Source: a virus. From it: 64,000 nt of DNA. The position numbers and the translations under genes are program-made. A model generated the notes under the pieces. The model searched no databases. It saw nothing but the letters and a program-made list of their open reading frames with translations, and was not told the origin of the DNA. Each line of letters starts with the position of its first letter. The stretch's first letter is position 1. The stretch spans positions 1 through 64,000 of IMG/VR virus record IMGVR_UViG_3300010371_000037. One strand, 5' to 3'. Below, in pieces: positions 37,062 through 58,535 of this stretch.

Positions 37062-37352
37062 ATGGACATTAACAAGTGGCATGAAATCAAACAACGACTT
37101 ATCCAAGAAAATGGATGCCTGGATGATGTAGTGATTGATGGGCATGAAGGCATGTTGATGACTTGGGATGAATTTTTTATAGATGTGAATATAAACACAT
37201 TGACTGACCATGATGGTAGTGGAGACCTGGTCAATGAAAAAGGAGTTATAATTGGCAGAATCAATCCCTCCGATGTCTATGTGGACGGTTGGAATCCCGA
37301 ATGGATAGACAAGAATAAAGAGGATGTATTTGTGCTCTGGTACAATAAATAG
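37062..37352 (+). CDS. Acidic hypothetical protein
   Basis: 96 residues after GAGGTGACATC. Strongly acidic (VVIDGHEGMLMTWDEFFIDV), ends VFVLWYNK. Its stop overlaps the late-type box ahead of the tmRNA. Confidence 0.55.
   Translation: MDINKWHEIKQRLIQENGCLDDVVIDGHEGMLMTWDEFFIDVNINTLTDHDGSGDLVNEKGVIIGRINPSDVYVDGWNPEWIDKNKEDVFVLWYNK
37344..37351 (+). promoter_or_regulatory. Late-type promoter box AATAAATA before the tmRNA
   Basis: AATAAATAGATTTG directly precedes the structured 5' part of the tmRNA gene, suggesting late transcription of ssrA. Confidence 0.4.
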
Positions 37353-37444
37353 ATTTGCGTTGTTGGTTGAAAAGTAGGTGGCGCGAAATTCGTACAGAGA
37401 AGGTCCAGCAGCCAATTGGGATAAGCTCTGGCAACGCAAATTAT

Positions 37445-37514
37445 TGTAGAATGGTAGTAAAGGTGTTGTTTGGCGGCAGGTTGGACGCGGGTTCGATTCC
37501 CGCCCACTCCACCA
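37445..37514 (+). ncRNA. tmRNA acceptor piece (approximate)
   Basis: Holds the 3' strand of P2 (GGTAG at 37453, pairing with CTACC at 37643), the T arm, the 3' acceptor strand and an encoded CCA. The 5' end is not sharply defined. Confidence 0.75.
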
Positions 37515-37600
37515 AAAGCAAATTAGTCACGAAAGGGGAAGGTAAGATCACCGTATCGTAAGAGAAATCCTAGACCCGGTGACGCTAGTTTGTTTTTGAT
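37515..37600 (+). other. Intervening segment joining the two tmRNA halves
   Basis: 86 bases between CCA and GGGG. Its ends can pair (CAAATTAGTCAC with GGTGACGCTAGTTTG), forming a hairpin that would extend the acceptor stem. It would be removed in processing, as in known permuted tmRNAs. Confidence 0.75.
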
Positions 37601-37824
37601 GGGGTGGACATGGCTTCGACAGTCTGGACTGAGGACAAGGCTCTACCCAAGCGTTGAATGTAGGCTTGTAAATCTGAACACTCAAACGTCAAATGCAAAC
37701 GATAATGCATACGATCTAGCCCTAGCGGCCTGATCCCAAGAGTGGCTCCGTCTTGGTTCCTCAACGGAGCATTGAATTAAAGAACCCACAGGGTGATGCA
37801 TTAAATCCTGCGGATGAGAGGAAA
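37601..37824 (+). ncRNA. tmRNA coding piece (approximate 3' end)
   Basis: Starts with the 5' acceptor strand and contains pseudoknot 1, the tag frame and pseudoknot 2. The 3' limit is set just before the terminator stem by inference. Confidence 0.8.
37695..37733 (+). other. tmRNA tag reading frame, ANDNAYDLALAA
   Basis: The resume codon GCA at 37695 is followed by AAC GAT AAT GCA TAC GAT CTA GCC CTA GCG GCC TGA. The tag starts AND and ends LALAA, like bacterial ssrA tags, whose last residues are read by ClpXP and related proteases. Confidence 0.9.
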
Positions 37825-37856
37825 GACTGACGCCTCTGAAAAGGTCAGTCCGTTTT
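37825..37856 (+). terminator. Terminator of the tmRNA gene
   Basis: 7-bp stem GACTGAC/GTCAGTC with a 12-base loop, followed by CGTTTT. The leftward gene ends inside this hairpin. Confidence 0.7.
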
Positions 37857-38462
37857 ATGTCTTCTTTTGTTCGCTTCAGATATCTTATTTCTTATTTCTT
37901 GCGACGGATTTTTATTTGATTCTGATATTTTTTGTTTGTGATCTTTCGAAAGATGTTTTCCTCTATTCCAGCATACTAACTTAGATTTTTGTGATTCATT
38001 CATCGTTTTGCCTTTATTCCAAGGCACCATTCTAGATTTTTGAGCATGAGTAAAAATTTTGCCTTTATTCCATGGAACCAGTTTTGATAACTTTTGGCGT
38101 TGATGCTCTGGCATCCGTTTACCTTTATTCCAAGGCACTCGCCTACGCAATTTCTCTCTAGTTTCCTCAGTGATATTTTTACACACAAATTTTCCGTCTC
38201 CATTATGTTGATTGTAATAGTCAGAATTATTCTTTGCGTCTGCAGTTTTCAAAATTGTTGCTTCTAACATCAAACAATCGTCATAAGTTCCTTCTGTAAT
38301 GATTTGTCTTGTGAAATCGTCGGGCCTCTTGGTATATTCTTCTAACATCCATTTAGAAGAGCAAACATATCCGTCGTCCTCAGAACCTTTATGGCAACCA
38401 ACATAGAGCATGTTTTTTAGATGATCAGTCCAACAATATGTGAAAGCTTCTTGATTTTTCAT
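37845..38462 (-). CDS. GIY-YIG-like homing endonuclease with NUMOD3 repeats
   Basis: 205 residues on the minus strand. N-terminal YCWTDHLKNMLYVGCHKGS resembles the GIY-YIG core, with EGTYDDCLMLEATIL following. Four PWNKGK/CWNRGK modules (NUMOD3, DNA-binding) fill residues about 125-190. The C-terminus is basic (EIRNKISEANKRRHKTD). Phage Seg-type freestanding homing endonucleases have this design. It sits head-to-tail against the tmRNA, its stop codon inside the tmRNA terminator. The shared palindromic late box at 38483 could drive it. Confidence 0.75.
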   Translation of the reverse strand: MKNQEAFTYCWTDHLKNMLYVGCHKGSEDDGYVCSSKWMLEEYTKRPDDFTRQIITEGTYDDCLMLEATILKTADAKNNSDYYNQHNGDGKFVCKNITEETREKLRRRVPWNKGKRMPEHQRQKLSKLVPWNKGKIFTHAQKSRMVPWNKGKTMNESQKSKLVCWNRGKHLSKDHKQKISESNKNPSQEIRNKISEANKRRHKTD

Positions 38463-41723: not shown

Positions 41724-42494
41724 ATGTCACCTATCAAACGTTCATATGGGTGGAAGAAGCAACAGCATGATTCAAGAGACAATTTCTTCGGTGTACAAGA
41801 ACCAGTTCAACTACCATCTTCCTTCAGATTGGTTGAAGGAATGCCTGAAGTCTGGGATCAAGGTCAAACCAATAGCTGTACAGCCCATGCTGCATCTGCA
41901 GCCTATGAGTATGAGCTTTCCCAACAACACTTGCCCGATTTCATGCCTTCCCGTTTGTTTCTCTACTACAACGAAAGAATTGAAGAAGGTACAACCAATC
42001 AGGATGCGGGCGCAACTATCCGTGACTCCGTCAAAGCACTTGCCAAATACGGAACTCTCCCAGAAAGTTATTGGCCATTTTCTGAAAGAATATCAGCAGC
42101 ACCTGAATCAGCAGATTATCAAGTCGCTATTAGAAACATTATTACATCCTACAGCGCAGTGCCCCAAGTCCTGCAATCCATCAAAACAGCAATCTTTCAA
42201 AAACACCCTGTCATATTCGGATTTTCAGTCTATGAGTCCTTTGAGTCCGCAGAAGTCGCAAGGACAGGCATTCAGCCCATACCTTCGCCTGCCGAGCAAT
42301 GCCTCGGTGGTCACGCAGTCTTGGCTGTAGGGTTTGATGATTCAAGAAAAAGTTTTTGGATTAGAAACAGTTGGGGAGCAGATTGGGGCCAGGAAGGATA
42401 TTTTTTGATGCCTTATGACTACATAATTAATGTTAAACTAGCAAGTGACTTTTGGATCATAGAATCAGAACTGGAAAATGATAAATCTAGCTAA
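41724..42494 (+). CDS. Papain-like (C1A) cysteine peptidase
   Basis: 256 residues. Catalytic Cys52 in DQGQTNSCTAHA, His in GGHAVLAVGFDD and Asn in FWIRNSWGADWGQEGYF; the oxyanion Gln is in DQGQ. No signal peptide. A late box upstream suggests expression with virion genes, so it may be packaged or act at the host surface. Substrate unknown. Confidence 0.88.
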   Translation: MSPIKRSYGWKKQQHDSRDNFFGVQEPVQLPSSFRLVEGMPEVWDQGQTNSCTAHAASAAYEYELSQQHLPDFMPSRLFLYYNERIEEGTTNQDAGATIRDSVKALAKYGTLPESYWPFSERISAAPESADYQVAIRNIITSYSAVPQVLQSIKTAIFQKHPVIFGFSVYESFESAEVARTGIQPIPSPAEQCLGGHAVLAVGFDDSRKSFWIRNSWGADWGQEGYFLMPYDYIINVKLASDFWIIESELENDKSS

Positions 42495-57664: not shown

Positions 57665-57924
57665 GGTTTCATCAGTTCAGTGGTGAAATCAATTACAACA
57701 TCTAAATTCTCAATCGTGGCGGCACCTTGCATTTTGATCTTGCCATCAGGTCCGCTGGCACAGAATGAGAAGTCTGAATTGGAATTCTCTCCAACTTCAA
57801 GAATGGCCCAAGCGCCATCTGTTGTATTCCAACACAGGTCCAGAATACCAGCTTCTGTGTCATGGTATTGTTCTGGACTTGGTTCTGAATATTTCCTGCT
57901 CTTGAGATAATCTATCACATTCAT
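57661..57924 (-). CDS. Leftward hypothetical protein
   Basis: 87 residues. NVIDYLKSRKYSEPSPEQYH, acidic beta-rich centre. Coupled to the trypsin-like gene by an ATGA overlap at 57921-57924. The 3' end meets the rightward gene at 57661-57664. Function unknown. Confidence 0.6.
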   Translation of the reverse strand: MNVIDYLKSRKYSEPSPEQYHDTEAGILDLCWNTTDGAWAILEVGENSNSDFSFCASGPDGKIKMQGAATIENLDVVIDFTTELMKP

Positions 57925-58535
57925 TGAATATGTTCCAACTGTTGTGTCGAGAATGACAAAGGATAAGCGCAGGCGAATCCGATGTAATCATGATTGTCAG
58001 ACAGGGAGGCTATACAAGTGATGGTTGTGATGATTTCTCCTTGTTGATTGAAAATAGCTGAACCAGAGTCCCCATAGAAACTTGGTAGTTGAAACATCAT
58101 CATTACTGCGCGTGATCCTACATGTGATAGTCCTGAATACACACCAGTCCTATACAACTGATCCAAACGCCCAGGAGCGCCAGCGATAAACACTTCCTGA
58201 CCCAATTGTAAAGGTTGTTGACTAATACTAGCCCAGTTCTTAAAAGTGTATCCCAAAATAACGATCACATGATCTTTGGTATCATATGTTTTATGCTTAA
58301 CGGGTACAACTTTGTCTTTGGAATCCACAGCAAGTGAAGAAGTGTTCTTGTCAACACAATGAGATGCGGTTAATATAGTATGAGGTCCAACTGCAACAGA
58401 ATTACAATCACTGCCGTCAGCAAACCAGATTTGATGTGTCACAGATATCAATGAAACAGGGAAGTCTGCTCTCTGTTGAATTGAACAGCATGAACATAAC
58501 AAAAGTAGCAGTATAGCTATCAACAACTTCTTCAT
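57921..58535 (-). CDS. Trypsin-like serine protease lipoprotein
   Basis: 204 residues on the minus strand. Signal MKKLLIAILLLLLCSC with lipobox LCSC, so the mature protein is likely lipid-anchored. Chymotrypsin-fold triad: His59 in LTASHCV, Asp in KDHVIVIL and Ser in SFYGDSGSAIF. It would act in the periplasm or at the outer membrane. A late box on the minus strand lies at 58561-58567. Confidence 0.82.
   Translation of the reverse strand: MKKLLIAILLLLLCSCCSIQQRADFPVSLISVTHQIWFADGSDCNSVAVGPHTILTASHCVDKNTSSLAVDSKDKVVPVKHKTYDTKDHVIVILGYTFKNWASISQQPLQLGQEVFIAGAPGRLDQLYRTGVYSGLSHVGSRAVMMMFQLPSFYGDSGSAIFNQQGEIITTITCIASLSDNHDYIGFACAYPLSFSTQQLEHIQ

Follow-up and report, generated by a model that had tools for sequence, protein, structure and literature searches.

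A circularly permuted, beta-type tmRNA gene with a structured RNA element in its spacer in a T4-superfamily phage

The window analyzed here is a 64,000-nucleotide stretch of viral DNA, positions 1 to 64,000 of IMG/VR record IMGVR_UViG_3300010371_000037; the record comprises 67,441 bases and may be a fragment. It encodes a T4-type major head protein (phrog_138, E 2e-145), a prohead scaffold, a gp32-type SSB, NrdA, polynucleotide kinase (PNK), tail fibres and an RNA ligase/tail fibre attachment protein, and at least 14 tRNAs form a run at 58.9-62.9 kb. The record is that of a T4-superfamily phage, and among isolates Stenotrophomonas phage DLP6 has the nearest head protein (65%). The window also contains a papain-family cysteine protease gene (41724-42494, plus strand) and a trypsin-like protease gene (57921-58535, minus strand). 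A complete circularly permuted tmRNA gene of beta type lies at about 37422-37824 on the plus strand. Because phage genes flank it on both sides, we rejected host contamination as its source. The features of the locus are as follows.

37353..37441 (+): leader inverted repeat, 10-bp perfect arms ATTTGCGTTG / CAACGCAAAT around 69 nt (repeat search, folding)
37453..37514 (+): acceptor piece, the 3' part of the tRNA-like domain (sequence reading, ARAGORN, Rfam; predicted ends)
37453-37457 (+): P2 strand GGTAG of the acceptor piece
37487-37503 (+): T arm, stem GCGGG/CCCGC (read directly)
37504-37510 (+): 3' acceptor strand CCACTCC (read directly)
37511 (+): A73, followed by CCA at 37512-37514
37515..37600 (+): spacer (intervening segment), which precursor processing is expected to remove
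37601..37824 (+): coding (mRNA-like) piece (sequence reading, ARAGORN, Rfam; predicted ends)
37601-37607 (+): 5' acceptor strand GGGGTGG (read directly)
37611-37620 (+): TGGCTTCGAC in the coding piece
37643-37647 (+): P2 strand CTACC of the coding piece
37695..37733 (+): tag reading frame GCA..GCC TGA, encoding ANDNAYDLALAA and a stop (ARAGORN)
37736..37770 (+): H-type pseudoknot after the tag, CCAAGA/UCUUGG with GCUCCG/CGGAGC
37825..37850 (+): inverted repeat GACTGAC/GTCAGTC then CGTTTT, in overlap with the end of the endonuclease gene on the opposite strand
37845..38462 (-): free-standing homing endonuclease gene (phrog_314, E 3e-16), convergent with the tmRNA gene and 20 nt from its end

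The initial annotation, made from the sequence alone, had read a permuted tmRNA gene here, with the T arm and CCA ahead of a 5' acceptor strand and the two strands pairing over 7 bp with a G3-U70 signal, and had proposed a covariance-model search as a check. ARAGORN called a permuted tmRNA at 37422-37824 on the plus strand, with the tag ANDNAYDLALAA and its stop, and the merged permuted model of Rfam, RF04321 (tmRNA_permuted), covered 37453-37733 at 106.5 bits (cut-off 47; E 9.1e-20), both in agreement with that reading. The beta_tmRNA model RF01850 was the best of its clan over 37404-37779 (E 2e-22), at 73.8 bits and thus under its cut-off of 84; we therefore describe the gene as beta-like and did not file it as a member of RF01850. 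In the gene, the 3' tRNA-like part with its CCA (37487-37514) comes first and the 5' acceptor strand (37601-37607) second; the two acceptor strands form seven base pairs, among them G3.U70, which together with A73 gives the alanine identity. Acceptor pairs 5 and 6 of the window (U-A and G-C) are rare among viral homologues, yet they are paired. The tag frame has its stop and a small/hydrophobic end, with ALAA at the terminus.

Two pseudoknots had also been described as flanking the tag, and they fared differently. The one after the tag was clear, being equaled in only 4/300 shuffles, whereas the one before it (CAAGC/GCUUG and an imperfect second stem) was weak and not significant from this sequence alone; 29/300 shuffles reached the best score in the pre-tag region, which itself came from another stem pair. 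Directly upstream of the acceptor piece stands the leader hairpin (37353-37441), which may have replaced an ancestral promoter, since the alignment with beta_tmRNA places the 5' portion of that model over this repeat. The inverted repeat at 37825..37850 is a possible weak terminator, and the terminator scan did not report it. The Rfam scan found neither a glutamine riboswitch nor any other riboswitch beside the tmRNA gene of the window. ARAGORN, Rfam and the T4-type genes together support the proposal, already made in the initial annotation, that a complete permuted copy in a phage would supply a rescue RNA with its own tag, and we regard this as the natural reading of such a gene in a T4-type phage.

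The first annotation had further held that permuted ssrA genes are known only from bacteria and organelles. The literature contradicts this: a two-piece ssrA was reported in phage Melnitz in 2022, when 53/133 unique phage tmRNA structures were two-piece (PMC9004378), and 79 phage tmRNA sequences have been listed elsewhere (PMC11915505). With these reports, a permuted tmRNA in a phage is of a kind already known. Two pattern scans of IMG/VR yielded 99 and 51 stretches, from about 150 contigs, and ARAGORN called a permuted tmRNA in nearly all of them. Among the 32 such contigs of at least 60 kb, 17 encode a T4-type head protein. SmpB was absent from all 32, and also from the 67-kb record of the window, which may be a fragment; positive controls were included in both searches. 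The phage SmpB of a self-sufficient phage trans-translation system was thus not found, and the phage would have to rely on the SmpB of its host.

Acceptor pairs 5 and 6, on which the search pattern placed no constraint, covary among 128 distinct viral genes (A-U, G-C, C-G and U-A), with pairing in 98-99% of cases, and G3.U70 and A73 are kept in 127 of these 128. The 5-bp P2 helix between the two pieces forms in 136/146 genes, against a mean of 103 (maximum 112) when acceptor and coding pieces were exchanged between genes. Of 145 tags called by ARAGORN, 117 end in LAA, 134 end in a small/hydrophobic residue followed by AA, and 126 carry AND near the start. Constraints of this kind are signs that both the tag and the tRNA-like end work.

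Other RNA genes were noticed as well. Tagless mini tmRNAs of about 75-80 nt, consisting of the tRNA-like domain only, as in mycobacteriophage DS6A, were seen in a dozen viral contigs: L233 (107-126, minus strand), L242, L244, L249, L251, L252, L254, L260 (1044-1124, plus strand; RF00023 match, 63.7 bits), L261, L262, L263 and L267. In the acidobacterial Tunturiibacter phage Tunturi_4 (L291, 518-1370), the gene for a permuted tmRNA, its tag predicted to have 33 residues, comes immediately after one annotated as an RF-1 domain peptide chain release factor, so that two possible ribosome-rescue functions adjoin. tRNAs with a CTA anticodon, called Pyl by ARAGORN, occur in two permuted-tmRNA phages (L269, 2532-2608; L311, 4907-4981) and are possible amber suppressors or recoding tRNAs.

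The part of the locus that was absent from the initial annotation, and that is novel, is a structured element in the spacer. The spacer is closed by a long stem (37515-37526/37585-37596) that starts right after the CCA, and TGAT then leads into the 5' acceptor strand. Such a frame is common to phage spacers, the ends of which pair over at least 7 bp in 117/125 cases against a mean of 43 when ends were swapped, and TGAT precedes the 5' acceptor strand in 94/128. The cores within the frame differ widely, and some contain tRNA-like sequence. The element is one filler among many in this shared hairpin frame. As an observation of its own, the spacers of L015, L060 and L041 have a tRNA or tRNA-like insert, and L015 resembles a whole tRNA nested in a tmRNA gene. 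The parts of the element in the window are the following.

37518..37596 (+): structured pseudoknotted RNA element of about 80 nt, in the spacer
37518-37526/37585-37593 (+): P1
37529-37532/37556-37559 (+): P2 of the element, ACGA/TCGT
37562-37563/37568-37569 (+): P3, a small hairpin
37548-37553/37577-37582 (+): P4, TCACCG/CGGTGA, a pseudoknot crossing P2

Between the window and its nearest relative, L089, the spacer is more similar than most of the mature parts. A pattern of the shared core matched only L089, L293 (the tRNA cluster of the T4-like contig G002) and L294; two further patterns gave L309, L311 and L312 and then L313, for a total of eight phage contigs with the window included. With a covariance model built from seven members, all eight scored 76-101 bits, and L313, which had been left out of the model, scored 77.3 bits. 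The consensus of P2 is [AG]CGA/UCG[UC], and P4 reads UCACCG/CGGUGA in the window and GUACCG/CGGUAC in L311. In the seven sequences, 12/22 element pairs change on both sides; the covariation score was 0.416 against 0.187 in shuffles, none of 500 shuffles reached it, and controls with slid partners gave at most 0.11. Most of this covariation comes from P1. P2 and P3 add one both-sided pair each and P4 adds three, and P4 is paired in only 76% of cells; the covariation of P2-P4 rests on few changes because the eight members are few and share most core letters. Covariation beyond both shuffles and slid partners argues that the element is a conserved structured RNA.

Rfam offered no match to the element, either in an E-value scan of 37300-37900 against 4227 families or in gathering scans of other members. 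Searches of the INPHARED phages returned one weak match at chance level, plasmids and E. coli genomes returned none, and the covariance models R1 and R2 added no members over about 107 records. Weak covariance matches in X1, G022 and G031 (E 0.1-0.4) were treated as chance.

We then compared where the eight copies lie. Three are in spacers of permuted tmRNAs (the window, L089 and L312), where the element ends a few bases before the coding piece; two are in leaders (L309 and L311), directly before the acceptor piece of a permuted tmRNA. In G002 it stands between the two halves, first 3' and then 5', of a permuted tRNA-like gene with paired acceptor strands (GGTGAGG/CCTCATC), in L313 it directly precedes a tRNA-Thr, and in L294 it occupies an mRNA leader. 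In seven of the eight copies, therefore, a tRNA or tmRNA piece starts close behind the 3' end of the element.

The tRNA-like gene of G002 deserves its own description. It lies in a phage tRNA cluster (L295, 14880-15120, minus strand; G002:C1, about 94880-95120) and is circularly permuted, with the 3' half and its T arm first, then the element, and then the 5' half with the D arm. Its acceptor strands form a 7-bp helix and its outer ends are also paired; the T stem is imperfect, and ARAGORN reads tRNA-Cys(GCA) in several joins of the two halves. Permuted tRNAs have been described for algae and archaea (PMC3978253). A search for others in 4.7 Mb of loci (both strands counted) gave spurious pairs only; the G002 case, with its imperfect T stem, escaped the filter of this search.

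Taken together, these data lead us to a model that we consider probable, in which a working phage ssrA gene of permuted beta type carries a spacer element that aids maturation of the 5' end. A single transcript would contain the acceptor piece, the spacer and the coding piece in this order. The spacer would be a closed hairpin domain capped by the pseudoknotted element and not filler, and its removal, together with the flanks, would leave a two-piece tmRNA held together by the acceptor stem and P2. Host AlaRS would charge it with alanine, and EF-Tu and SmpB would also come from the host. The charged tmRNA would enter ribosomes stalled on broken mRNA during infection; the ribosome would add ANDNAYDLALAA and be freed at UGA, and the tagged peptide would pass to host proteases. 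Expression, processing, charging, rescue and proteolysis are predicted here from sequence, as is the function of the element. A rescue RNA carried by a phage can change how infected cells handle broken messages.

For the element, we propose a role in 5'-end processing of phage tRNAs and tmRNAs, which we favor because end formation is the need common to seven of the eight sites. It could be a fold that offers the junction to RNase P, or possibly a self-cleaving ribozyme. That it represents a new class of small self-cleaving or processing RNAs, freeing the 5' ends of permuted tmRNAs and tRNAs partly independently of host nucleases, is a tentative idea that we hold to be rather unlikely. The element is dispensable for permuted tmRNAs generally, because most phage cases have unrelated spacer cores. 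As a candidate new structured RNA with a link to the formation of tRNA and tmRNA ends, it nonetheless lends itself to direct testing.

A quite possible alternative, if short of probable, is that the tmRNA works and the element is something else, either a regulatory RNA (binding a ligand or protein, or acting on stability) or a mobile cassette that settles in phage RNA operons. The copy in L294 speaks for this and against a processing role, since it begins a few bases after TTGACA..TATACT, a sequence like a sigma-70 promoter, and precedes a protein gene, a place with no tRNA to process. (We had considered this gene to encode a DIP1984 protein and dropped the assignment, as Pfam gives only a sub-threshold DUF6847.) The L313 copy shares its tRNA cluster with another phage RNA, GOLLD, and the unrelated inserts of other spacers, some of them tRNA-like (L015, L060), would also suit such an origin. 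However, a free cassette would be expected elsewhere too and not, in nearly every copy, just ahead of a tRNA or tmRNA piece, and neither repeats nor ends of a mobile element were seen.

Another reading has the gene taken from a betaproteobacterial host and thus marking that host; the initial annotation had held that the gene points to the host lineage. The beta_tmRNA model is indeed the best of the older Rfam models. Beta-type permuted tmRNAs above cut-off, however, were found in the Stenotrophomonas phages DLP6 and Marzo, Xanthomonas phage XacN1, Pseudomonas aeruginosa phage PaMx31 and Acinetobacter phage BUCT628, and further permuted tmRNAs in Stenotrophomonas phage QDWS359 and Xanthomonas phages X1 and Rb1. 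The chromosomal tmRNA is one-piece in Stenotrophomonas, Xanthomonas, Pseudomonas and Acinetobacter hosts. Permuted host genes are common in Alpha- and Betaproteobacteria and in Cyanobacteria (PMC9004378). The exact tag ANDNAYDLALAA was in none of the 84,980 species genomes scanned, and neither was a permuted pattern with the acceptor stem of the window at its spacing; the closest isolate by head protein, moreover, is a Stenotrophomonas phage. We consider this origin unlikely. Because beta-type genes occur in phages of hosts outside the reported permuted lineages, the permuted form is not, on this evidence, a reliable host marker, and phages therefore appear to take such genes with them from one bacterial lineage to another. 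That the form of the gene is independent of the host bears on how the permuted form has spread and on the use of phage tmRNAs as host markers. Such genes can also escape annotation: the permuted tmRNA of DLP6 is unannotated in its record, and we found no mention of a tmRNA in the DLP6 paper.

Could the phage RNA instead oppose the host system, by competing for SmpB or by retagging with a poorly degraded tag that blunts host trans-translation? Tagless mini tmRNAs do exist in other phages, and a molecule like that of DS6A is reported to inhibit tmRNA (PMC4131195, citing Mao 2009). The window nevertheless encodes a full tag that ends in ALAA in the manner of degradation tags, and most viral homologues have such a tag too; an action against the host seems to us quite improbable. 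Still more improbable is a captured relic drifting without function, to which the low RF01850 score, the weak pre-tag pseudoknot, the unusual acceptor stem and a tag not found in bacteria might point, since all seven acceptor pairs, G3.U70, A73, CCA, the resume codon, the stop and the LAA end are intact, pairs unlike those of relatives differ on both sides, and permuted tmRNAs are also kept in the T4-like relatives G002 and DLP6.

The phage gene with its spacer element can be set beside four known systems. The two-piece ssrA of Melnitz, a Methylophilales phage (PMC9004378), is likewise a complete permuted tmRNA in a T4-type phage, and we re-found it with 113.4 bits and an adjoining glutamine riboswitch; it is of alpha type (RF01849, 106.7 bits), whereas the window gene is of beta type, has another tag, carries the spacer element and had no riboswitch found next to it. 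With the beta-type permuted tmRNAs of RF01850 and RF04321, the window shares the gene order, the acceptor and P2 pairing and the resume/tag region; it differs in being phage-borne, in its long structured spacer, in its tag ANDNAYDLALAA and in scoring below the RF01850 cut-off. Stenotrophomonas phages DLP6 and Marzo also carry a permuted beta-type tmRNA in T4-like genomes, but the spacer of DLP6 is short (about 31 nt) and without the element, and the tags there (ANDDSFAPMAIAA; VAANDDSYTVRIAA) differ from that of the window. Finally, GOLLD RNA (RF02032) is, like the element, a structured RNA of phage tRNA clusters, and it lies near the element copy in L313 (2758-3224, minus strand, 203.6 bits); GOLLD exceeds 400 nt, whereas the element has about 80 nt and gives no match to the GOLLD model.
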